Source of the DNA: Evansella sp. LMS18
GTDB taxonomy: Bacteria > Bacillota > Bacilli > Bacillales > Salisediminibacteriaceae
Length of the DNA: 64,000 bases
Direction: 5' to 3'
Assembly: GCF_024362785.1 (NCBI RefSeq)
Contig: NZ_CP093301.1
Coordinates: 992,001 to 1,056,000 of the forward strand
The notes below the pieces were generated by a model. The model did not search any database and was not told where the DNA came from. It was given only the letters and a program-made list of their open reading frames with translations. This document shows, piece after piece, positions 9,990 through 32,988 of this stretch (position 1 is the first letter of the stretch; each line of letters begins with the position of its first letter). The translations under genes were made by a program, and so were the position numbers.

Positions 9990-10014
9990 CCCTCTGCCTG
10001 AAACAAGCAGAGGG
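9990..10014 (-). terminator. Terminator after the orphan S-box
   Basis: Minus-strand hairpin CCCTCTGC...GCAGAGGG followed by ATTTTTAGC. No reading frame of any size lies between it and the next promoter, so this terminator ends a non-coding transcript. Confidence 0.75.
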
Positions 10015-10057
10015 AAATGAGTACGATAAGTTACAGGAAATATTCCTGATTCTTCTC

Positions 10058-10176
10058 TGTCTCATCTTCCAAAGCTCGCAATAAGCTTTGCAGGAATTAG
10101 CACCTTCGGAAATGCAATGCAGTCTCCGTGGTTGCCGGGCTTCAACGGGCCAGTCCCTCCGCCTCTCTGGATAAGA
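10058..10176 (-). ncRNA. Third SAM-I (S-box) riboswitch, no gene of its own
   Basis: Minus strand has CTTATCCAGAGAGGCGGAGG, GGACTGGCCC, GAAGCCCGGCAACC, GGTGCTAATTCCTGC and a closing GATGAGACAGAG. The aptamer looks intact. Downstream, instead of a gene, come its terminator, two small hairpins (9924-9939 and 9956-9976), a fresh promoter and the metX S-box. Confidence 0.92.
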
Positions 10177-10212
10177 AAAATTTGATAATTAAAATTTATT
10201 AAGTTGAAAAGA

Positions 10213-10241
10213 ATTTTATCACTAGTTTTCTCAGTTGTCAA
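10213..10241 (-). promoter_or_regulatory. Promoter of the orphan S-box transcript
   Basis: Perfect TTGACA (forward 10236-10241) and TAAAAT (forward 10213-10218) with a 17-base spacer on the minus strand, ending about 37 nt before the aptamer. Confidence 0.75.
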
Positions 10242-10378
10242 AATAATTTTTCAATTAAGTATAACTTTTGCTCAGAATTATGGTTGTTACTTTAAAAGTG
10301 TGTTGAAGAGAACTATACTCTTCTGTAACAGGGATTATTAATCATTCTGAGCTAACGGCATACTCATTTTTTTACTTG

Positions 10379-10628
10379 AATGAATTTCATATATTAGTTT
10401 TGAATAAAGGATGACGAACCTTATTTTTCGATTGCAGCGTAAGACGGCGACTCTGGCGGGAAAAGCATGAAAAGCTGAAAATCCATTTTTGACGGCGTTA
10501 TGCCGTCAAAAATTAGTTGAAGCCGTGCCCGCAGAACGCGGCCGTCTGTAGCGTAAATCGAACAATAAAGTAACATGTTAAGATAGTGTTCGTATTAAAG
10601 ATGAATATCTTGAATTAAGAAATTCATT
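10379..10628. repeat. Dispersed palindromic element, copy 1
   Basis: The 136-bp core (10427-10562) starts TTCGATTGCAGCGTAAGACG and ends GTAAATCGAA. Its ends are complementary (TTCGATT/AATCGAA), with nested pairs GACGGC/GCCGTC and GCGGG/CCCGC and an inner TTGACGGC/GCCGTCAA hairpin, so it folds into one long rod. A 10-bp inverted repeat AATGAATTTC/GAAATTCATT brackets it at 10379 and 10619. A second copy of the core of identical length is at 25375-25510, with about 8 differences by my count. No coding potential. Confidence 0.85.
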
Positions 10629-15443: not shown

Positions 15444-16355
15444 ATGGAAGACCTCTATCCTTCACGTGTTGAAAGCAAACCGGAAATTACAGAAAGAAAA
15501 GACCCAGTCATCCATACTGACCGCTCTAAAGATCATGAATCTCCGTTATCGAAAAAACAACTGGATTTTTATGAAAAAAATGGTTATTTACAACTTGAAA
15601 ACATATTTTCAAATGATGAAGTTGCTGATATGCAAAAAGCAATTTTCGAACTGAGGGACTCTAACCGCGATGTTTCATCAGATAAGATTATCCGTGAACC
15701 TGACCATGATGAAATCCGCTCTATATTCGCAGTGGACCAGGACGACAATTTCTTTAAGGAAATAGCACAGGACCAGCGACTTCTGGACATAGTTAATCAC
15801 CTGTTGGGCAGCGACGTTTATGTCCATCAGTCCAGGATTAATTATAAGCCTGGATTTGCAGGGAAAGAATTTAACTGGCACTCTGACTTTGAAACATGGC
15901 ATGTAGAGGATGGTATGCCCAGAATGAGAGCGCTTAGCATGTCGATCGCCCTTTCGGATAACCATACATTTAACGGACCGCTTATGCTTGTGCCCGGTTC
16001 GCAAAACTACTACGTCAGCTGTGTAGGTGAAACGCCGGAAAACCATTTTAAAGAGTCCTTAAAGACTCAAAAATTTGGTGTGCCGGATAATGACAGTCTG
16101 AAATGGCTGGTGGAAAATGGGGGCGGCCTGGATGTCGCCACTGGAAAAGCAGGCACAATTACATTATTTGAATGTAACACAATGCATGCTTCCACAAGCA
16201 ATATAACACCATATCCGCGTAATAACCTGTTCATGGTTTATAACAGTGTAGAAAACAAACTTGTAGAGCCGTTTTCCGGCGCAAGCCCGAGACCAGAATA
16301 TATTGCTGTCAGAAACACGACAGAACCTCTTGGAAAAAAAGGAACGCTGGCTTAA
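15444..16355 (+). CDS. ectD: Ectoine hydroxylase
   Basis: Fe(II)- and 2-oxoglutarate-dependent dioxygenase converting the compatible solute ectoine to 5-hydroxyectoine in the cytosol. The 303 residues carry the EctD signature [19 protein letters not shown], which gives the His and Asp iron ligands, and the distal histidine in [28 protein letters not shown] and [10 protein letters not shown] are also typical. No ectABC genes lie in the window, so the ectoine substrate must come from elsewhere in the genome. AGGAGTG precedes the ATG. A shared terminator separates it from znuA. Confidence 0.95.
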
Positions 16356-16461: not shown

Positions 16462-17745
16462 TTATTGAAGGGCGGTTCTTAATGTTTCGATGTTACTTCG
16501 CATAAGTGTAAAGTAATCTTCTCCCGCTTCAAGTTCTTCCTCTGTTAATGTTTCAAGGTTATGAAGCCAGAGAGACTCGGCTCCTGTCTCGCTTTGCACA
16601 GTCTGCGCAATATTCTGCGGGATATTCTGTTCAAACATCACATGGTTAATATCGTTTTCTTCCATATGAGAGATAACATCCTGCATTTGCTGGATGGATG
16701 GTTCATTTGTCGGGGAGATACCTGCAATTCCGATTTGATGAATACCGTATCTTTCTTCCCAGTAACCATAGCCAGCATGTGAAACAACAATTGTATTATT
16801 TGACACTTCCTCTGACATCTCGATAAATTCCTGGTCCAGCTCTTCCAATTCACTTCTGAGTGATTCAAAGTTTTCCGTAAAAGTTTCTTCAGCAGCCGGA
16901 TTTAATTCCACTAACGCACCCTTAATGTTTTCAGCTATTTCTATCGCTCTCAGGGGATCAAGCCAGATGTGCGGATCCTCATCTCCGTGTGCGTGGTCAT
17001 GGCCATGGTCATGATTATTTTCATCATCTTCATGATTATGGTTGTGATCGTTGTTATTGTGATCGTTATTGTTATTATGACCATGATTATGGTTATTATC
17101 TTCATCATTGTCATTGTCATTGTGATTATGGTTATGATTATCATTGTCATTGTGATCATGGTTATCATTGTGATCATGATTGTGATCGTCATTGTGATCA
17201 TGATTGTGATCGTCATTGTGATCATGATTGTGATCGTCATTGTGATCATGATTGTGATCGTCATTGTGATCATGATTGTGATCGTCATTGTGATCATGAT
17301 CATGATGATAATCAATTAAGTCAATTCCCTCAGCCGCAGTTAAAATAGTGACGTCATGAGAAGCAATGGTTTCTTCGATTCGTTCAGCAAAAGCCTCGAA
17401 CCCAGCTCCGTTATAAATAAATAAGTCTCCTTCGGCTATTTCAATCATCTGGTTGGCAGTTGGCTCAAAAGAATGTGCATCTGCACCTGCCGGGATAATA
17501 TTAGTTACTTCCACGTACTCGCCGCCAATACGGTTTGCAAAATCTTCTAGAGGATAAAGTGTAGTATATACCTTGATGGTTTCTTCAATATTTACATCTC
17601 CATCCTGGTTATTGTTTGCATTATTATTTTCCTCGTTAATTTCGTTGTTATTTACCTCATCTTCTTCAGGTTCGTTTGCGCCACAAGCTGCCAGTAGCAA
17701 AACAGCTGCAAAAATTAATGAAAATAAAACAGATAATTTCTTCAT
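16462..17745 (-). CDS. znuA: Zinc ABC transporter substrate-binding lipoprotein with giant His-rich loop
   Basis: ZnuA/AdcA-type cluster A-I binding protein, 427 residues. A signal peptide ends in LLAAC (lipobox near residue 20), followed by an Asn/Glu linker. The first lobe has YTTLYPLEDFANRIGG and the metal-ligand histidine in GADAHSFEPT. Residues about 145-260 are an extreme His/Asp/Asn stretch, including five to six exact HNDDHNHD repeats. The second lobe has DPHIWLDP, VVSHAGYGYWEERYG and the final ligand region. No permease or ATPase gene adjoins. Two Zur-type boxes lie upstream. Confidence 0.9.
   Translation of the reverse strand: MKKLSVLFSLIFAAVLLLAACGANEPEEDEVNNNEINEENNNANNNQDGDVNIEETIKVYTTLYPLEDFANRIGGEYVEVTNIIPAGADAHSFEPTANQMIEIAEGDLFIYNGAGFEAFAERIEETIASHDVTILTAAEGIDLIDYHHDHDHNDDHNHDHNDDHNHDHNDDHNHDHNDDHNHDHNDDHNHDHNDNHDHNDNDNHNHNHNDNDNDEDNNHNHGHNNNNDHNNNDHNHNHEDDENNHDHGHDHAHGDEDPHIWLDPLRAIEIAENIKGALVELNPAAEETFTENFESLRSELEELDQEFIEMSEEVSNNTIVVSHAGYGYWEERYGIHQIGIAGISPTNEPSIQQMQDVISHMEENDINHVMFEQNIPQNIAQTVQSETGAESLWLHNLETLTEEELEAGEDYFTLMRSNIETLRTALQ
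16990..17310. repeat. 24-bp coding repeats in the His-rich loop of znuA
   Basis: Period-24 copies of a GATCATGATTGTGATCGTCA-type unit run from about 17150 to 17300, with degenerate shorter repeats to 16990. Each unit encodes eight residues rich in His and Asp. Such arrays change length by slippage in frame. Confidence 0.85.
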
Positions 17746-19744: not shown

Positions 19745-20695
19745 TTAATCAGAAGTTAATCCATCAACAAATACCTCTACATTATGGCGGATCATATCAA
19801 TATAAGTTTCCGCCCCTGACCCCTCTTCTCCAACTGCATCAGTATATACTTCTCCTGCAATCGGTACTCCGGAGTTGTCAGCTACTGTTTCCATATAACG
19901 CTTATCTACTGTCGTTTCCACAAAAACAGCAGGCAGGCCGCTTTCACTCACAATATCAATAATCCGGTTAATCTGCTGCGGAGTCCCTTCTTCATGAGAA
20001 TTTATTTCCCAGACACCTTCCGTTTCAAAACCATAATCTTTACCAAAGTATTTAAAAGCATTTTCACTTACGATTATCTTTCTGTGTTCTTCCCGGATTT
20101 CAGCGACCTGCTCCTCAATCCATCCATCAAGCTCCTGAATTTCGTTCAAATAAGCTTCTGCATTATCACGATATTCTTCTTCTCCATCCGGATCCCGTTC
20201 AACAAGATCTTCCAATAAATTATTAACATATATGTTAATATTTTTTGGGCTCAGCCATGCATGGGGATCTGGTGCATCTTCTCCTTCAAGAGGAATTTCC
20301 TCCACTCCCGCACTCAAATCTACAATAGGGGTATCAGAAGCGTTCTCAACAATCTTTTCAAGCCATTCCTCAAGTCCTAAGCCATTAGTATAGAAGACAT
20401 CTGAATCACTTACCCGCGCAAAGTTGCTTGGTACAGGCTCATACTCATGTGGTTCTTCTCCAATTGGGACAATGTATTCTACTGAAGCCCTGTCACCCGT
20501 AATCTCTCCAATAATATCACCAAGTACGGAAAAACTGGTAGTTATCATTAGTTCTTCATTTTCATCTGCGTTGGCACTAGTATTTTCATTTGCCCCTTCA
20601 TTGATATTTGATTCATCATTTGTATTCTCTGCTCCGCAACCTGCAAACAATAAAAGTGAGCCTGTGACAAGCATTCCCTGTATAAATTTCTTCAA
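19745..20695 (-). CDS. mntA: Manganese-type ABC transporter substrate-binding lipoprotein
   Basis: Cluster A-I metal-binding lipoprotein (316 residues) closer to MntA/TroA than to ZnuA. The lipobox is LLFAGC near residue 19. Metal-ligand regions are GEEPHEYEPVPSNFARV, PDPHAWLSPKN, IIVSENAFKYFGKDYG and the C-terminal GEVYTDAVG. The start is TTG, preceded by AAGGAGGATGAC. No permease or ATPase gene adjoins it, so it must share a transporter encoded elsewhere. Two MntR-like boxes upstream support manganese as the ligand; iron cannot be excluded from the protein alone. Confidence 0.82.
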   Translation of the reverse strand: MKKFIQGMLVTGSLLLFAGCGAENTNDESNINEGANENTSANADENEELMITTSFSVLGDIIGEITGDRASVEYIVPIGEEPHEYEPVPSNFARVSDSDVFYTNGLGLEEWLEKIVENASDTPIVDLSAGVEEIPLEGEDAPDPHAWLSPKNINIYVNNLLEDLVERDPDGEEEYRDNAEAYLNEIQELDGWIEEQVAEIREEHRKIIVSENAFKYFGKDYGFETEGVWEINSHEEGTPQQINRIIDIVSESGLPAVFVETTVDKRYMETVADNSGVPIAGEVYTDAVGEEGSGAETYIDMIRHNVEVFVDGLTSD

Positions 20696-25549: not shown

Positions 25550-27238
25550 TTAATATTTTTTCAGCAAATAACGTAACGGTATACATGAAACAAGAATGAT
25601 TATTAATGCAGACGGTGCAGCCAGGTGATATAGCGCTTCTGACGCTTCAAAATACACACGGACAGCAAGCGTATCAAAGCCTGGCGGCCGGAGCATAAGC
25701 GTTGCCGGCAGCTCCTTGATGGAGCTCACAAACACAAGCGCACCACCGGCAAGCACACCTGGAAGAATACTAGGCAGGATCACCTTAAGCATCACTTTCC
25801 ATGGCGGATAACCAAGACTTCTAGCCGCTTCGTCAATCCTCGGTGAGACAAGGCTTAAGGAAGCTTCGCCAGCCTGCATTGCCTGCGGAAGAAAACGTAC
25901 AACAAATGCAAGAGCTACCATATAAAAAGTATTATAAAGGGCAGGAATATGGTTATTAAAAATAAACACCATCCCTAAAGCGACAATAACACCTGGAAGA
26001 GCATACCCTCCATAGCTTAATCGGTCTATCACGGTTGAAATAACAGACGGGTACCTGGATTTCAGGTAGATAATCGGCAGTGCAAGAAGCATACATAAAA
26101 TAGCAGCAAATCCTGACACCTGAAGGCTATTCCATGCAAAGCCAAAGAACCTTTCATCAATAGCTCCCATTCCAATACCGATGTATGACCAGTAAACCAA
26201 TACACTAATAGGCAGAATGACCGACAGGAAAAATACTAAACTAACATAAATTACCGTAATAACCTTCCATTTTCCAAGGGGAAGAATATCCGGCGGCCTG
26301 AAGGTGTTTGCTGTCTGGTAATACTTGCTTTTCTTCCTTGTTCTTGCTTCAATCCACAAGATGATAACCGTAAGTAAAATCAACACTAAACTTAATACGG
26401 AAGCAGCAGCAGTATCAAATCCAGCACGCTGAAAATAAATGGCTGCCGTAAAGGTTACATACCGGAGCATTGCAATTGCCCCAAAATCCGATAGAACATA
26501 TAACGATACGAGAATGGCTCCCGCCCCTATAGCCGGTCTCAGGAAAGGCAAGTTAACTTTCCAGAAAACCTGGGAAGCAGTGAGCCCCTGAGAACGGGCT
26601 ACCTCTTCATAGTTCCTGTTCATTTTCCGAAGGGATGCGCTCGCTATCAAAAAAACATATGGGTAGGTAAACATGGTTAAAACGAAGAAAACGCCCCAGA
26701 AAGAATAAATATTTAATGGATAATCCCCGATATTTGCCAGCCACGCTGTATCCCGCCAAATGTCCCTTACCCAGCCGCTGGGGCCAAATACAATAATATA
26801 GGTTACCGCCCCTACATAAGGAGGGATAACAAGTGGAAGCGCTAACAGCCATTGCCACAATTTACGTCCTGGTATATTTGTCCGGACAACAATCCATGCA
26901 AGAGATACTCCAAGAATAACCGCACATACAGTTACTGCAAAAGTAAGGGAAAAAGTATTCCATAATAATTGAGGAATTCTCTCGTCTAATAGACGCATCC
27001 ACCTGTCTGCTCCGGCAAACATGGAACGCCAGACAACATAAATTATTGGAACTGACATAATTAACCCAACAAAAAGACCGAACAACAACAATATTGTCCC
27101 AGGAGGGTTTCCGTTCCAGATTCTGTACCATCCGCTTCTGAAAAAATGGAGAATGGCTGGGGAAGTTTTTTCCCCAACCTCGGCATTTTTCCCATTATTC
27201 TGTTGTGCTTCAGATTCTCTGTTGTTACGACTGTCCAT
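25550..27238 (-). CDS. fbpB: Ferric-iron ABC transporter permease
   Basis: Membrane component of a FbpABC/FutABC-type Fe3+ importer, 562 residues. It is a tandem duplication: two sets of about six helices, each with a coupling-loop motif (ARSQGLTASQVFWKVNLPFL near 220 and AARSLGYPPWKVMLKVILPS near 495). The N-terminal 35 residues are hydrophilic. The ATG at 27238 is preferred to the TTG at 27271 because GGGAGAGGG lies just before it. It follows the binding-protein gene by about 37 bases. No ATPase gene is adjacent, so FbpC must be encoded elsewhere. Confidence 0.88.
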   Translation of the reverse strand: MDSRNNRESEAQQNNGKNAEVGEKTSPAILHFFRSGWYRIWNGNPPGTILLLFGLFVGLIMSVPIIYVVWRSMFAGADRWMRLLDERIPQLLWNTFSLTFAVTVCAVILGVSLAWIVVRTNIPGRKLWQWLLALPLVIPPYVGAVTYIIVFGPSGWVRDIWRDTAWLANIGDYPLNIYSFWGVFFVLTMFTYPYVFLIASASLRKMNRNYEEVARSQGLTASQVFWKVNLPFLRPAIGAGAILVSLYVLSDFGAIAMLRYVTFTAAIYFQRAGFDTAAASVLSLVLILLTVIILWIEARTRKKSKYYQTANTFRPPDILPLGKWKVITVIYVSLVFFLSVILPISVLVYWSYIGIGMGAIDERFFGFAWNSLQVSGFAAILCMLLALPIIYLKSRYPSVISTVIDRLSYGGYALPGVIVALGMVFIFNNHIPALYNTFYMVALAFVVRFLPQAMQAGEASLSLVSPRIDEAARSLGYPPWKVMLKVILPSILPGVLAGGALVFVSSIKELPATLMLRPPGFDTLAVRVYFEASEALYHLAAPSALIIILVSCIPLRYLLKKY

Positions 27239-27275
27239 TATGCCCTCTCCCGGTGAACTGACTAGCGTCAACTGT

Positions 27276-28406
27276 TTATTTTAATTCTAGATCAAGGCCT
27301 GAAGCTTCCACTAATTCTTTCGTCCCTTCAAAATAGTTACCAAGTTCCTTCAGCGGCATGTCCTGAATTTTCAGTTCGCCGAAAGGAATAACATGAGGTT
27401 CCACTTCTTCAGGATATTCTGCTTCGTACTCATCATTTATAAGAAGTTCAAGAGACTCACCTACAAATGCTACCTGGTTTTCAGGCTTTAATACCCACTC
27501 GAGGAAGGCATGCGCGTTCTCCTCGTTTGGCGCGCCGTTAATTAAGCCTACACCGGCTGCATTAGCAATAGCCCCCATCTCGTCATCACCCTGGTCAAGG
27601 TATATAAAGCCTACGTTATTGTCCGATGGCTCGAGGAGCTGCTGGTGATAGTAGTAATTATTTACAAGACCGAAGGAATGCTCGCCGGCACCTACCGCTC
27701 TGCGGATATCACCATGTCCGTCATAGATTCCCGCTGCGTTTTCTTTTATAGAAGCTACCCATTCAGCAGTTTTATCGTCACCCCACTCATATCGGAGCGC
27801 GGAAACATTACCAAGCATGCCCCCGTTACCACCTCTGGTGATAGCATAACCATTTTCTACATCTGCCCACTCTTCATCAAATAAATCTTCCATACTCGTT
27901 GGCATTTCGTCCTCAGAAATCAAATCTTTATTATAGATAAGGCCGCGGGATCTTGCTGAGATTGCGAAGTAAGAGTTATCGTCAGCGCGGAACTCCTCAG
28001 GAATGGATTCAATACCTTCAGGGTCCGATCCTGATAACAGGTCCTGGTTGTCCAGGTAACCTAGTGCACCCATATCGTTAGAGATAAAGATATCCGCCTG
28101 GACATTTCCGGCTTCCTCTTCAATTTGCAGAGCTTCCGCTCCATGAAGGGCCAGAACCTCCACGCCTGTTTCTTCTTCAAATTTCTGAAGAAGTGGATCT
28201 ACAAAGTTTTCATTACGAGACGAGTATACTACAAGTTGTCCGTCCAGTTCCACTGCTTCGCCATTTTCCGCATTATTAGTATTCTCGTTTTGGTCTCCGG
28301 CTGCTGCGTTTGTTTCACTGTTATTATCATTCGCACCACATCCTGCTGCTGTTACAAGCGCTAAAGTTAACGTGCCGAATAATAAAGGTTTCAAAGATTT
28401 TTTCAT
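27276..28406 (-). CDS. fbpA: Ferric-iron ABC transporter substrate-binding lipoprotein
   Basis: Fe3+-binding lipoprotein of the FbpA/FutA family, 376 residues. Signal peptide with lipobox TAAGC near residue 23, then an Asn/Glu linker. The mature protein begins LVVYSSRNENFVDPLLQKFE, and has ARSRGLIYNKDLI and VNNYYYHQQLLEP, whose paired tyrosines are the usual Fe3+ ligands. ATG follows GGGGGAAAAC. A consensus promoter overlapped by two Fur boxes lies upstream, so expression should rise under iron starvation. It is divergent from the encapsulin operon. Confidence 0.9.
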   Translation of the reverse strand: MKKSLKPLLFGTLTLALVTAAGCGANDNNSETNAAAGDQNENTNNAENGEAVELDGQLVVYSSRNENFVDPLLQKFEEETGVEVLALHGAEALQIEEEAGNVQADIFISNDMGALGYLDNQDLLSGSDPEGIESIPEEFRADDNSYFAISARSRGLIYNKDLISEDEMPTSMEDLFDEEWADVENGYAITRGGNGGMLGNVSALRYEWGDDKTAEWVASIKENAAGIYDGHGDIRRAVGAGEHSFGLVNNYYYHQQLLEPSDNNVGFIYLDQGDDEMGAIANAAGVGLINGAPNEENAHAFLEWVLKPENQVAFVGESLELLINDEYEAEYPEEVEPHVIPFGELKIQDMPLKELGNYFEGTKELVEASGLDLELK

Positions 28407-28445: not shown

Positions 28446-28506
28446 TGATAATGATTATCATTTGCGTTGATAATTTTAGTATAAAGCGAATGAGAATCAT
28501 TGTCAA
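28446..28506 (-). promoter_or_regulatory. Fur-controlled promoter of fbpAB
   Basis: TTGACA (forward 28501-28506) and TATACT (forward 28478-28483) with a 17-base spacer on the minus strand. A perfect 7-1-7 Fur box TGATAAT G ATTATCA is at 28446-28460, and a second, TGAGAAT C ATTGTCA, at 28491-28505 overlaps the -35. Confidence 0.88.
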
Positions 28507-28675: not shown

Positions 28676-29293
28676 GTGGCTGCACACTTTTCTGATTTAA
28701 AAGATATGTTTATCAGAACAAGGGAAGCGATAAATGATTTTATGGCAATCCTCACCCCCAGGATCGAAAATGCAAAAGACGACCATGAACGGCTTTATTA
28801 CCATCATATTTACGAAGAAGAAGAACAGCGGCTCGACCGTCTGAATGCTTTAATTCCAAAGCTTGATTTCTATATCGATAACGACGGGGCAAGATCTGCT
28901 GATAACCTGGAATTTGTCCGCTTACTTCAGGATATAAGTCTTGAAAAATTCGGGCTGCATAATTTCCTGGAGCATCTGGATTTAGCATTATTTTCTTTTA
29001 AAGAAACTGAACATGCGGAAAACCTCACCCGCATGAGGAACATTACCGCTGACGATTACCAGTCGATAAAACCTATCTTAAATACTTTAAACGAAGAATT
29101 TGATGGAGCTGCCTCTGCCGCCGGATCTGTACCTACAGATGAAAAAGAAGATGTTGCAGATCATCTGAAAATCGAAAAATACACTTCTTCAGCTTCCGGA
29201 GACCATTCAGAAAAACACCAAAAGGAAGCTGCCGTTTCCAGCAGCAGTAAACCTGCAAAAAGACTCACGGTCGGAAGCCTGAAAAATTTATAG
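28676..29293 (+). CDS. IMEF iron-mineralising encapsulin cargo protein
   Basis: Cargo ferroxidase-like protein of Firmicute iron-storage encapsulins, 205 residues. The helical part has FMAILTPRIENAKDDHERLYYHHIYEEEEQRL (cited in part: DDHERLYYHHIYEEEEQRL), the His/Glu-rich stretch typical of IMEF. After a Ser/Ala/Lys-rich linker (about 150-192) it ends KRLTVGSLKNL, the encapsulin targeting peptide of TVGSL type. Start is GTG after AAAGGAAGTG. The shell gene follows 11 bases later. The protein should be packed inside the shell and oxidise Fe2+ for mineral storage; the role is known from Quasibacillus thermotolerans, not shown here. Confidence 0.9.
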   Translation: MAAHFSDLKDMFIRTREAINDFMAILTPRIENAKDDHERLYYHHIYEEEEQRLDRLNALIPKLDFYIDNDGARSADNLEFVRLLQDISLEKFGLHNFLEHLDLALFSFKETEHAENLTRMRNITADDYQSIKPILNTLNEEFDGAASAAGSVPTDEKEDVADHLKIEKYTSSASGDHSEKHQKEAAVSSSSKPAKRLTVGSLKNL

Positions 29294-29304
29294 GAGGTCA
29301 TATA

Positions 29305-30156
29305 ATGGACAAAGTTCAAAAATTCCACGATTCCCCACTTACAAACAAAGAATGGCAGATGCTTGATGAGACAGTAGTTGAAAATGCCCGACGTAATCTG
29401 ATTGGGCGCCGGTTCATGGATATATACGGCCCTCTCGGACAAGGCGTGCAATCAGTAATAAATGATATATATGAAGAATCCGAACAGGGAAGCCTCAGCC
29501 TTCATGGGGAAGAACTGGACACCTCAGACTCCACTAAAAGAGTTCATTTGACAATTCCCCTGCTTTATAAAGACTTCCAGCTTTTCTGGCGTGATATTGA
29601 ACAGGCAAGAACACTGGATATTCCAATTGATTTCTCACAGGCAGCAAATGCAGTTACTCAATGCTCCCTGCTGGAAGATGACCTGATTTTTAACGGCTCG
29701 GAAGAATTTAATATTCCAGGGCTGTCGAATGTTAAAGGCCATTTAACTCACGTAAGGTCAGATTGGCTTAAATCCGGCAACGCTTTTAAAGACATTGTGG
29801 ATGCCCGCAACAAGCTTTTGCAGATGGGACATAACGGGCCTTACGCTTTAGTGCTTTCACCAGACCTTTACGCTCTTCTTCACCGTGTTCATGAGGGGAC
29901 GAACGTACTGGAAATCGAGCATGTCCGGGAATTAGTTACCGACGGGGTGTTCCAGTCTCCAGTCCTGAAAGAAAACTCAGGATTACTGATAGCAACAGGC
30001 CGCCATAACCTTGACCTGGTCATCGCTGAAGACATGGACTCCGCTTATATGGACGTTGAAAATATGAACCATTTATTCAGGATTTACGAATGTATCGTCC
30101 CAAGGGTTAAACGCCCAAGTTCTATTTGTACTTTAGAGAACCCTGAACATAATTAA
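29305..30156 (+). CDS. Encapsulin shell protein (IMEF-associated type)
   Basis: HK97-fold nanocompartment shell protein, 283 residues. The N-terminus LTNKEWQMLDETVVENARR and GRRFMDIYGPLGQGVQSV are family hallmarks, followed by the VHLTIPLLYKDFQLFWRDIE segment, the E-loop to P-domain region, and the C-terminal LVIAEDMDSAYMDVENMNHLFRIYECIVPRVKRP. By analogy with the Quasibacillus system the shell should be T=4 with 240 copies. AGGAGGTCATATA precedes the ATG. It forms an operon with the IMEF cargo gene and ends at a strong terminator. Confidence 0.93.
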   Translation: MDKVQKFHDSPLTNKEWQMLDETVVENARRNLIGRRFMDIYGPLGQGVQSVINDIYEESEQGSLSLHGEELDTSDSTKRVHLTIPLLYKDFQLFWRDIEQARTLDIPIDFSQAANAVTQCSLLEDDLIFNGSEEFNIPGLSNVKGHLTHVRSDWLKSGNAFKDIVDARNKLLQMGHNGPYALVLSPDLYALLHRVHEGTNVLEIEHVRELVTDGVFQSPVLKENSGLLIATGRHNLDLVIAEDMDSAYMDVENMNHLFRIYECIVPRVKRPSSICTLENPEHN

Positions 30157-30168
30157 ACTGGCCAAAAC

Positions 30169-30205
30169 TTATCCCCTTTTGAAAATTCAAAAGGGGATTT
30201 TGTTT
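30169..30205. terminator. Bidirectional terminator after encapsulin
   Basis: ATCCCCTTTTGA, AAAT, TCAAAAGGGGAT, then TTTGTTTT on the plus strand; it also lies just after the stop of the convergent 158-residue gene. Confidence 0.85.
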
Positions 30206-30681
30206 TAAGCTATTTTCACCACTTTATTATTGAACATCGTCATAAACTCATAGCTTAATTCCTGTTTTTCGTTAATCAGCACATCGCTGCCGATGTCTTC
30301 AATAATAAGTCTCGCTTCTTCTACAAAAGGTTTCGTGAAAGCTCCCTGGTCTCCTTTTGCAAGACATTTTAAGTAACGCATTTTTTCTTTTATTTTTATT
30401 TCTTTAAAGTAGTGGTTTTTCATATCTTTAATTTTTTTGTGTGCTGGTGATTTAATCATGCTTATGTCATTCACATGGACGATAATATGTGAGCCATCAT
30501 TGGCGACAATAGCGGCAGTATAAAAAATTCCGCCTGAGTAATCAATATTTGTAAAAACAGGGTTTTTATAAATCTCACCGTTTTTAAGCTGTACTTCTTC
30601 AGCCTCTATAACTCCACCGATTTTTCTCTCGTTTTCAATTACAGTATAAAAATCTTTGTACCCGTTGATAAAATAACTCAT
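30205..30681 (-). CDS. Unrecognised 158-residue protein in the encapsulin locus
   Basis: I do not recognise this family. The protein is soluble, without signal peptide or membrane segment. The first half (MSYFINGYKDFYTVIENE ... GGIFYTAAIVANDGSHIIVHVNDI) looks beta-rich; the middle is Lys-rich (HKKIKDMKNHYFKEIKIKEK) and the end is helical (FVEEARLIIEDIG). No encapsulin targeting peptide is visible. It is the only gene between encapsulin and the ferredoxin cargo, convergent to the former. GGAGGGGTGTAA precedes the ATG, and a consensus promoter with Fur-type boxes lies upstream. Iron-responsive expression is therefore likely; its function is unknown. Confidence 0.8.
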   Translation of the reverse strand: MSYFINGYKDFYTVIENERKIGGVIEAEEVQLKNGEIYKNPVFTNIDYSGGIFYTAAIVANDGSHIIVHVNDISMIKSPAHKKIKDMKNHYFKEIKIKEKMRYLKCLAKGDQGAFTKPFVEEARLIIEDIGSDVLINEKQELSYEFMTMFNNKVVKIA

Positions 30682-30699
30682 TTACACCCCTCCATACAA

Positions 30700-30764
30700 T
30701 GAGAATAATTTTCATTATCATTGATATCCATTCTCATCATAAAGTATGCAGAAAGGTTCGTCAA
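30700..30764 (-). promoter_or_regulatory. Fur-controlled promoter of the 158-residue gene
   Basis: TTGACG (forward 30759-30764) and TATGAT (30736-30741) are 17 bases apart on the minus strand. Downstream lie TGATATC C ATTCTCA (forward 30722-30736) and TGAGAAT A ATTTTCA (30700-30714), both close to the 7-1-7 Fur box. Confidence 0.75.
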
Positions 30765-30823
30765 TACTGTTTTCTGTAAATTCAAACGTTTGTCACAATC
30801 GGTTTATATTAATTATAAATAAG

Positions 30824-31237
30824 TTAGTTGCATTCTACTACAGACTGGCATGCCAGCCGGAAGCCAGGGATCTTTTTCTTCTTTAGTGTTTCTTTTTCCT
30901 GGTCTGTCTTACCTGCCAGGCAATGTTCTCCTTTAATTATCTTCACCGCGCATTTTCCGCACGTCCCTGCCCGGCATTTAAAATTGACCGGTTTATTGGA
31001 CTGTAAAGCAGCATCCAGAAGAGTATGATTACCTTCGGAAGCTGTAATTGAATATACCTTATTGTTTTGGGTAAAAGTTATTGTTTTCGGCTCTGGTTTA
31101 ACTATTCCCTTGATGCTATTCGCAGAATAATCCTCGTGCTGCTTAACGGCAGATACTGTGTCGTTATAAGCGCCTGTCCTATGTCTTTCCTCGTTTCCAC
31201 TCTTCAATGAGCCAACGGTTAGTTTTTTTGTTCGCAC
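30824..31237 (-). CDS. 2Fe-2S ferredoxin with N-terminal encapsulin targeting peptide
   Basis: Plant-type ferredoxin, 137 residues from the chosen start. The cluster cysteines are in CRAGTCGKC and a distal FRLACQS (C-x4-C-x2-C ... C). The GTG at 31237 has GGAGG 6 bases ahead and is preferred to the ATG at 31261, which has no ribosome site. This puts KKLTVGSLK at residues 4-12, matching the C-terminal tag of the IMEF protein. A linker of about 45 residues separates tag and fold. The ferredoxin is thus expected to be targeted into or onto the shell and to move electrons for iron release, as proposed for this family. Confidence 0.88.
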   Translation of the reverse strand: MRTKKLTVGSLKSGNEERHRTGAYNDTVSAVKQHEDYSANSIKGIVKPEPKTITFTQNNKVYSITASEGNHTLLDAALQSNKPVNFKCRAGTCGKCAVKIIKGEHCLAGKTDQEKETLKKKKIPGFRLACQSVVECN

Positions 31238-31411
31238 CGTATTCCTCCCTTCGTCATTCATTGACCCCTTATTATTGGTCCTTCCGTTTTTTATAACATA
31301 TATTATATTTGATTATTCAGTCAACTGCACAATATAGTAAATGCCCCAAGCTGGTTTAACTCTGAATGAAAAAGGAATAATAAACTAAAGTACCTCTGGG
31401 AGGGATTTAAT

Positions 31412-31753
31412 ATGGGCAGTAAAGGACACACACATGAAGAGCACGAGCATCAGCACAGTATTGCATGCGGGCACACGAAAATCAGGCATGACGACCACAT
31501 TGATTATGTACACGATGGGCATCTTCATCATGAAAGCAATGGTGAATGGAAAGAATGCGCGCTTCCCGTAAACGGGGAAAATCCTGATGAATGTCAGCCT
31601 GTAGCTTGCGGATGTAACCATGAAGAAGATTGTGGACATGAACTTGTTCCACACGGCGACCATTATGACTATCTGGTAAACGGCCGGCTGCATCATCCCC
31701 ATGGCGATCATTGTGATGACCACGGTCCGGTGGAAATTGTTAAAGTGCAGTAA
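31412..31753 (+). CDS. His/Asp/Cys-rich small metal-binding protein
   Basis: A 113-residue cytosolic protein with no signal peptide. It has two homologous halves: ACGHTKIRHDDHIDYVHDGH followed by LHH, and CGHELVPHGDHYDYLVNGRL followed by HHPHGDHCDDHG. The second half carries the HGDHYDY pattern seen in histidine-triad zinc proteins. Six Cys and many His suggest zinc binding or buffering. GGGAGGG precedes the ATG and a terminator follows. I saw no Zur box upstream, but the next gene in the opposite direction is a YciC-type zinc GTPase. Function not assigned. Confidence 0.65.
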   Translation: MGSKGHTHEEHEHQHSIACGHTKIRHDDHIDYVHDGHLHHESNGEWKECALPVNGENPDECQPVACGCNHEEDCGHELVPHGDHYDYLVNGRLHHPHGDHCDDHGPVEIVKVQ

Positions 31754-31803: not shown

Positions 31804-32988
31804 TCAGCTATGTGTAAAAGCAGGGAGGGGATCTTTAAAGCCAGACCAGTTTTCAGCCATTTCTTCATCTGTTAAAAGGCATCTATCAAGCGATGCTTCT
31901 ACTTCCTTCTTGTTCATATCTATTCCAATCATTACAAGCTCTGTTGTCCGGTCACCATACGCTGGATCCCATTTTCCCAGGAGCTCCGGCTCTTCTCTTA
32001 ATGTCTGTTCTCTTTCCTCTTCAGGATACGCGGCAACCCACTCGCCAGCTGCCTGGATTGTTAATGAAGATCCTGCCTGGGAAAGAAGGCCCGCCATGTC
32101 ATTCCGGCTGGCAAGCCAGAAAAAACCTTTTGCTCTTACAACATCACGGGGCCAGTCTTCCAGCCATTGCATCCACCTTTCCGGGTGAAACGGTCTGTTT
32201 CTTCTGTACACAAACGAACTGATTCCGTACTCATCTGTTTCAGGTATATGTTCTTCATTTAATTCCTTAATCCAGCCAGCTGACTGGCTCGATTTCTCAA
32301 AATCGAACAGGTTTGTATCCATGATTTTTTCAAGTGGAATTTCGGCAAAGCTGCTTTCAAGGATTGAGGCCTCTGCATTAAATTTTCTCAATACTGCTTT
32401 AAGCTCCTTCACATCATCTTCCCCGACTAAATCTATCTTGTTCAGAATAAGAACATTTGCGAATTCAATCTGGTCAATAAGCAGGTCTACCACTTCTCTT
32501 TGATCAGTTTCGTCATTCGCCTCTTTACGATCCAGCAGAGATTCCCCGGAAGCATAATCCTCCCAGAATCGGTTAGCATCCACGACAGTTACCATTGTGT
32601 CAAGACGGCACAACTCAGGAAGATTAATTCCAAGCTCTTCATCGATATATGTAAATGACTGGGCTACAGGCACAGGTTCGGAAATCCCAGTTGATTCAAT
32701 GACAATATAATCAATATCTCCTGAATGTACGAGCCTTTCCACTTCCTGAATCAAGTCTTCTCTTAGGGTACAGCAGATACATCCGTTTTGCAGTTCAACC
32801 AGCTTTTCATCTGTCCGGGTAAAACCACCTTGTTTTATCATTGAGGCATCTATATTTATTTCACTCATGTCATTTACAATTACCGCAACTTTCCTGTTCT
32901 CTCTATTAGCGAGTATATGGTTAAGCAATGTTGTTTTACCAGATCCTAAATAGCCGCTTAATACTGTTACTGGCACTCTGTTTTCCAT
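31804..32988 (-). CDS. yciC: CobW/ZNG-type GTP-binding zinc metallochaperone (YciC-like)
   Basis: G3E-family P-loop GTPase, 394 residues. Walker A is [15 protein letters not shown] (about 11-25), the metal motif CICCTLRED (CxCC) near 71-79, the switch region [15 protein letters not shown] near 100 and the base motif NKIDLVGED near 160. The C-terminal CobW_C domain begins near 255 ([18 protein letters not shown]). Such proteins insert zinc into client enzymes under zinc limitation; B. subtilis YciC is Zur-regulated. AAGGAG precedes the ATG. It lies 23 bases after a flavoprotein gene whose promoter has a perfect Zur box. Confidence 0.88.

Follow-up and report, generated by a model that had tools for sequence, protein, structure and literature searches.

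The closest described relative of the locus analyzed here is the IMEF iron-storage encapsulin of Q. thermotolerans (structures 6nj8 and 6n63; PMC6668986). In the portions of the source papers available to us, to which our statements on them refer throughout, cargo and shell are reported together with, in 70% of the operons, a 2Fe-2S ferredoxin, and a ferrochelatase-like gene is also named (PMC6668986); many of the ferredoxins carry an N-terminal TVGSL motif and co-purify with the shells (PMC8346489), and they are termed Bfd-homologous (PMC6668986, PMC8346489 and the review PMC11202242). According to that 2024 review, the release of iron from encapsulin stores is yet to be shown. The locus described here lies in the 4.9-Mb genome of Evansella sp. 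LMS18, in a stretch of 64,000 nucleotides (positions 992,001 to 1,056,000 of contig NZ_CP093301.1; hereafter, the window), and is similar to the Q. thermotolerans system in its cargo, its shell, the order of these two genes and the C-terminal TVGSL tag. It also contains a gene of an unnamed family, denoted ORF158 (open reading frame of 158 residues), which is the main subject of this analysis. The features of the locus, in window coordinates, are as follows.

28676-29293, + strand: IMEF ferritin-like cargo, 205 residues, GTG start (TIGR04536, 254 bits against a cut-off of 100; PF24309, 197.5 bits against 27; closest solved relative, the Q. thermotolerans cargo 6n63, phmmer E 3e-41)
29264-29284, + strand: segment encoding the IMEF C-terminal targeting peptide LTVGSLK (tag pattern match)
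29305-30156, + strand: family-1 encapsulin shell protein, 283 residues (NF041155, 294 bits against a cut-off of 100; PF04454, 248 bits against 24.3; 6nj8, E 8e-121)
30171-30198, + strand: terminator-like hairpin, its stem of 12 pairs, separating the shell gene from ORF158 at their 3' ends (consensus scan only)
30205-30681, - strand: ORF158 (conservation, co-occurrence, structure model and fold matches)
30700-30714, no strand assigned: Fur box of ORF158, TGAGAATAATTTTCA, with 2 mismatches to the 7-1-7 consensus (consensus match; kept in relatives)
30824-31237, - strand: plant-type [2Fe-2S] ferredoxin with the pattern Cx4Cx2C...C (PF00111, 53 bits against a cut-off of 21; tag and cysteine pattern)
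31202-31222, - strand: segment encoding the ferredoxin N-terminal targeting peptide LTVGSLK (tag pattern match)

The locus encodes an iron-storage encapsulin of the IMEF type, accompanied by two accessory genes, the ferredoxin and ORF158. The trio of IMEF, shell and tagged ferredoxin is a further member of the published system, and the novelty lies with ORF158, which is located between the shell gene and the ferredoxin, inside the interval of the original prediction made from this DNA, yet was not listed there. We consider it likely that ORF158 is the constant, Fur-boxed third gene of the IMEF locus and constitutes a dedicated starvation arm that switches the store from filling to emptying. 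The original prediction had recognized a cargo with the IMEF pattern and a C-terminal TVGSL tag, a shell gene starting 11 bases downstream and a ferredoxin whose N-terminus bears the same tag, and had proposed hidden Markov model searches for the first two; the IMEF and encapsulin models are both matched above their cut-offs, the shell gene indeed begins 11 bases past the IMEF stop, and the ferredoxin matches PF00111 above its cut-off.

Among 80 IMEF loci drawn from a public collection of genomes, ORF158 was identified in 78, a count that, like the alignments, omits three matches from the window's own genome and two genomes of the same genus (L086-L088). The two loci without it are L035, a contig of a metagenome-assembled genome, and L083 (Neobacillus drentensis), where the IMEF gene (10001-10537) is interrupted by an in-frame stop and the fetched stretch contains no match to the shell or ORF158; L083 is perhaps a decaying encapsulin system. 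In all 79 complete loci of this first set, which excludes L035 and L083, ORF158 is found downstream on the opposite strand, and no other family among the neighboring reading frames of at least 90 residues occurs in more than 17 of the 79. The nearest named relative found, Evansella clarkii (L006), has a gene order identical to that of the window.

The same association is apparent in two genome samples that share part of their genomes. Among 397 genomes of the order, ORF158 was found in 34 and IMEF in 35 (31 above the cut-off), with 34 shared; the two genes are on the same contig in all 34, 0.9 to 3.3 kb apart, and the single IMEF without ORF158 is a fragment on a 13-kb contig where neither shell nor ORF158 was found. 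Among 299 genomes of the class, ORF158 was found in 40 and IMEF in 39 (36 above the cut-off, with that of G479 only just inside E 0.001), and all 39 are shared; the 40th ORF158 genome (G428) encodes, beside ORF158, a shell and an IMEF-like protein that is diverged and tagged with SVGSL (custom model, E 3e-4). ORF158 was not found in the IMEF-less genomes of either sample (362 and 259, respectively, with overlap). Fisher's test gives p of about 1e-48 in each sample, with related genomes counted as if independent. Of 9 Evansella genomes, 3 have IMEF.

Outside the first set, the arrangement of the genes varies: ORF158 is divergent in L183-L185, in tandem in L186 and L187, and separated from IMEF by other genes in L188, L191 and L194; in G538, it and IMEF lie on two contigs. 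That the linkage outlasts such rearrangement argues for a shared function of ORF158 and IMEF. The divergent and tandem arrangements in other families also exclude antisense control via convergent transcription as a conserved mechanism. Conceivably, ORF158 could belong to iron uptake or to the Fur regulon at large and simply travel along with the encapsulin in a mobile block, given that some IMEF loci have iron-uptake-like neighbors (for 17 of the 79, an ABC ATPase family assigned by eye). This is very improbable, considering that ORF158 was not found in the IMEF-less genomes of the two samples, that it accompanies IMEF through changes of gene order and over 26 family labels, and that the window protein has no match in phage or plasmid collections. 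A phage origin was likewise rejected; no viral fold match was obtained at E 0.001.

ORF158 is also kept where the ferredoxin is missing from the locus or unlinked, for example in Bacillus methanolicus PB1 (L062), whose locus has IMEF, shell and ORF158 but yielded no ferredoxin, and is present in three genomes in which no such ferredoxin was found (G082, G225 and G250), indicating that it is more than a ferredoxin partner. No description of ORF158 was found in the literature searched, including the available portions of PMC6668986 and PMC8346489. Within that literature, ORF158 is thus an unnamed, apparently undescribed constant partner of IMEF encapsulins.

Fur boxes were sought with a 7-1-7 consensus, allowing at most two mismatches in the scan of the window and at most three in the locus counts. 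The window contains six matches against 0.42 expected; three of these (17129-17167) are an artefact of a His/Asp-rich coding repeat, and the remaining boxes are at 28446 (perfect), 28491 and 30700. The last is the box of ORF158, immediately upstream of which lies a promoter-like site on the - strand (-35 at 30764, -10 ending at 30736). A box precedes ORF158 in 78 of the 79 complete loci, and the count for additional loci is 63 of 66 rows; most boxes lie 20-90 bases ahead of the start. By comparison, 240 of 3000 random 350-base stretches from the first locus set contain one. The further set comprises 67 rows, including L195, which has no upstream sequence, and L114, which is the window's own gene, and the 66 rows are partly non-independent, with identical protein ends in three pairs and one trio. 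A narrower count gave 77 of 82 at the same tolerance because wrongly early starts shifted the search zone; the value of 78 of 79 comes from a wider zone.

The genes that do the storing present a different picture. A box is found near IMEF in 14 of 79 loci, two of these being the fbpA boxes of the window and E. clarkii discussed below. Of the 72 ferredoxin genes, 25 have a box nearby, namely those that are divergent from ORF158 and share its promoter region; the ferredoxin of the window has no box of its own. The storing genes thus mostly lack a Fur box whereas ORF158 nearly always has one, which makes ORF158 the constant candidate Fur target, and control by Fur is predicted from these matches. 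That the single constant accessory gene carries the Fur boxes, which the ferredoxin shares in 25 loci, is suggestive of a starvation arm, and we infer that ORF158 belongs to such an arm, in either iron retrieval or the shut-off of storage.

The following mechanism can be proposed. In the part that is known, IMEF, anchored by its C-terminal tag, oxidizes Fe(II) and mineralizes iron inside the large shell, and the N-terminally tagged ferredoxin is a second cargo able to deliver electrons to the mineral. When iron is plentiful, Fur would silence ORF158 and the store would fill; when iron is short, ORF158 would be made, jointly with the ferredoxin where both share a divergent promoter region with a Fur box, and would turn the store from filling to emptying. 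We favor a direct action on the particle, with ORF158 binding the shell, the cargo or the ferredoxin, such that the mineral would be reduced and iron would leave. Given the rest of the explanation, this ranks as the most likely mechanism, with a chance somewhat short of even. The near-constancy of ORF158, almost equal to that of shell and cargo, could also be expected of an assembly or maturation factor of either one, with no specific role in starvation. However, in E. coli the two-gene operon of Q. thermotolerans alone sufficed for shells containing cargo and mineral, according to the available text of PMC6668986, and the Fur box would make such a factor scarce just while the store fills, so that this possibility appears improbable.

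ORF158 matches no Pfam or NCBIfam family at E 0.001, the window protein matches no Pfam family even at E 10, and 56 members of its family yielded scattered weak matches only, with those to GCM, RemA-like and PHROGs families judged to be due to chance. A single-chain structure prediction shows an N-terminal helix followed by a five-strand Sm/Hfq-like beta-barrel (approximately residues 6-82) and a helical C-terminal part. The first two Foldseek matches of this model are Hfq/Sm proteins, with E-values of 0.045 and 0.051, and Hfq/Sm entries account for most of the 50 VIA fold matches listed. Sequence homology to Hfq was rejected for lack of significance, whether two spurious rows were included or left out: the hhalign score of ORF158 against Hfq is 10.5, compared with a median of 10.9 for shuffled profiles, the Hfq family PF17209 is absent among the 25 of 36 families listed for other ORF158 members, and a PF17209 search of the window's own genome at E 0.001 recovered only the ordinary hfq gene elsewhere. 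Matches of the helical part to designed TPR proteins were judged to reflect mere helix similarity, and the C-terminal part modelled alone, with a predicted local distance difference test score (pLDDT) of 69, was judged too poor for a fold search. None of 79 members has a TVGSL-like tag and no cysteine is common to all 79; thus, ORF158 is probably neither a cargo nor a redox carrier.

The predicted barrel and the Hfq/Sm entries that lead the fold matches listed bring up the alternative form of the starvation arm, in which ORF158 would be an RNA-binding Sm-like protein that represses the making of new shell and cargo; produced in starvation, it would block translation of the IMEF-shell mRNA or destabilize it. 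The Fur box of ORF158 fits this scheme, and an additional link to iron would be useful because IMEF mostly lacks a box of its own. The sequence similarity to Hfq, however, is no better than that of shuffled profiles, the N-terminal domain has a mean charge of -1.2, Sm-like barrels serve non-RNA roles too, and no obvious common element was noticed in the regions upstream of IMEF in an informal reading by eye of 130 bases in 80 loci, for which reason a dedicated RNA element before IMEF was dropped. Conditional on the rest of the explanation, such a repressor ranks next after action on the particle and is rather unlikely; taken as a branch of the main explanation in its own right, it is unlikely. 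The reading that we prefer is the one where ORF158 acts on the particle. Whether the scheme extends to IMEF encapsulins generally, as three-gene systems in which a Fur-repressed Sm-like ORF158 is the near-universal switch from filling to emptying, in many lineages together with a plant-type tagged ferredoxin, appears to us evenly balanced.

The ferredoxin gene is present in 71 of the 80 public IMEF loci. In the window, the reading frame is listed from an ATG at 31261, but a GTG at 31237, the coordinate given in the original prediction, has GGAGG 6 bases upstream and places LTVGSLK at residues 6-12, as in most homologs. A regular expression for the tag finds it in 69 of 72 ferredoxins, the others being L015 (no tag seen), L038 (TISSL) and L081 (TVGTL). 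In three genomes, the tagged ferredoxin is unlinked from IMEF, being about 250 kb away in G371 and on another contig in G390 and G558, and retention of the tag under these circumstances supports the ferredoxin being a real cargo. L202, L203 and L204 are TVGSL-tagged ferredoxin genes distant from the IMEF locus of their own genome or on a separate contig. The residues flanking the motif agree between cargo and ferredoxin in many of 69 pairs, with L/L in 30 and F/F in 18 at position -1, and K/K in 22 and I/I in 27 at position +1, the remainder being mixed; the two tags thus appear to co-vary to a degree, and shared ancestry of the locus could yield the same pattern. The plant-type spacing Cx4Cx2C...C is observed in 72 of 72 ferredoxins and the Bfd spacing in none; PF00111 (Fer2) matches all 21 ferredoxins scanned, and no match to Fer2_BFD was listed for these 21 at E 0.1. 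On cysteine spacing and family match, the ferredoxins of IMEF loci are plant-type, and the Bfd homology given in print is unsupported here.

The IMEF protein ends in ...KRLTVGSLKNL. With regard to a possible His/Glu di-iron ferroxidase site, its blocks DDHERLYYHHIYEEEEQRL and LEKFGLHNF are identical in 6n63. The best-scoring solved shell, 6nj8, is the T=4 shell of Q. thermotolerans, with 9fy6 almost level (E 1e-120); by analogy with the close relatives 6nj8 and 6n63, the particle encoded in the window would have T=4 size, with 240 subunits and 42 nm across, and an iron core. An exact degenerate DNA pattern for LTVGSLK, which variant tags would escape, matches the whole genome twice, in the IMEF and ferredoxin genes only, and the reversed control pattern has no match. 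The original prediction had noted the lack of a ferritin or Dps gene and had taken the encapsulin to act in place of ferritin. Within the 64 kb this lack is confirmed, and, in keeping with an encapsulin acting in place of ferritin, no ferritin or bacterioferritin (Ftn/Bfr) model matched any of the five proteins of the genome with a match to the ferritin family PF00210; these are two Dps-like proteins, a manganese catalase and two weak encapsulin-associated ferritin-like matches, and the two Dps-like genes, which score below the curated NCBIfam cut-offs, lie elsewhere in the genome. L003 and L004 are small four-helix proteins of this genome with weak matches, far below the cut-off, to the encapsulin-associated ferritin-like model.

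Several observations concern IMEF genes in other lineages. L183, L184 and L185 encode diverged IMEF-like cargos in other families, with a VGS-type tag at the end and adjoining shell and ORF158 genes; that of L185 has 105 residues, and TIGR04536 scores two of the three below its cut-off and misses one. A small protein that we take to be DUF2325-like is encoded near the 5' side of IMEF in L177, L178, L179, L181 and L191 (two genome groups). A SigB-like promoter (consensus GTTTWW-N12-15-GGGWAW, at most one mismatch) precedes IMEF in 20 of 80 loci, all among L007-L059, compared with 60 of 978 neighbor genes and 2 of 80 shell genes; the best such match of the window's IMEF has three mismatches. Judging from these matches, general stress may control iron storage in some lineages, the window excluded.

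On the other side of IMEF, the window contains genes for a putative iron transporter and their Fur boxes, as follows.

25550-27271, - strand: fbpB-like ABC permease, a neighbor outside the conserved system (PF00528)
27276-28406, - strand: fbpA-like ABC substrate-binding protein, a neighbor outside the conserved system (PF13416/PF01547)
28446-28460, no strand assigned: perfect Fur box in the divergent fbpA promoter (consensus match; 1-mismatch counterparts in relatives)
28491-28505, no strand assigned: second fbpA Fur box, over the -35 of a - strand promoter-like site (consensus match)

The original prediction regarded fbpAB and the encapsulin as a Fur-controlled unit of uptake plus storage, on the strength of their divergent adjacency and the two good boxes, the second of which overlaps a promoter-like site with TTGACA at 28506 and TATACT ending at 28478. 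The genes and both boxes are there as described. The unit itself is the least probable of the readings considered, since only two of the 81 loci (the window plus L006-L085) have fbpB next to IMEF, namely those of the window and E. clarkii, and fbpAB orthologs, 72-85% identical, occur in four other Evansella genomes where no IMEF was found. Upstream of fbpA, three of these genomes have both boxes and the fourth, with an estimated fbpA start, has one: the box at 28491 is identical in all four, and that at 28446 has a counterpart with one mismatch at the same place in three. Most simply, then, the two boxes are fbpA's own, and because fbpAB and its boxes persist without IMEF, the pairing is a local neighborhood and not a unit; the uptake-plus-storage island was accordingly rejected for fbpAB.

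Further genes of the window encode a lipoprotein-like, very His-rich protein with HNDDHNHDH repeats (16462-17745, - strand) and a second lipoprotein-like protein (19745-20695, - strand), both of which look metal-binding by eye, a small His-rich protein without a family (31412-31753, + strand), and a CobW/ZigA-like GTPase (31804-32988, - strand; ZigA 545 bits, under the cut-off of 600). These four proteins make up a metal-homeostasis neighborhood, probably for zinc rather than iron. A dioxygenase-like protein (15444-16355, + strand) presumably resembles ectoine hydroxylase.

If the proposed role is correct, ORF158 would be the switch, so far missing, by which iron is retrieved from encapsulin stores, and, near-constant and preceded by a Fur box, it offers a single named target for the question of how iron exits from encapsulins. 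The plant-type assignment of the ferredoxin changes the choice of redox partners to try. More generally, operon surveys may overlook a constant partner that is encoded on the opposite strand and lacks a family name.

Compared with known systems, the locus combines shared and distinct features. The available portions of the literature on the Q. thermotolerans system (PMC6668986, PMC8346489) mention neither ORF158 nor a Fur box, and an ORF158 gene is located downstream in L054 (Bacillus thermotolerans SGZ-8). Unlike in the Q. thermotolerans system, the ferredoxin of the window is encoded on the other strand, beyond ORF158. The published tagged ferredoxins (PMC8346489, available portions) are similar to those described here in the N-terminal TVGSL motif and the 2Fe-2S domain, and are called Bfd homologs whereas the ferredoxins here match plant-type Fer2. 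Compared with Hfq/Sm proteins, ORF158 lacks sequence-profile similarity, is slightly acidic and has an extra helical C-terminal part. The release of iron from bacterioferritin by Bfd can serve as a working analogy for the switch proposed here, in that electrons reach a ferric mineral in iron shortage; the IMEF ferredoxin, in contrast to Bfd, is of another ferredoxin class and bears an encapsulin cargo tag.

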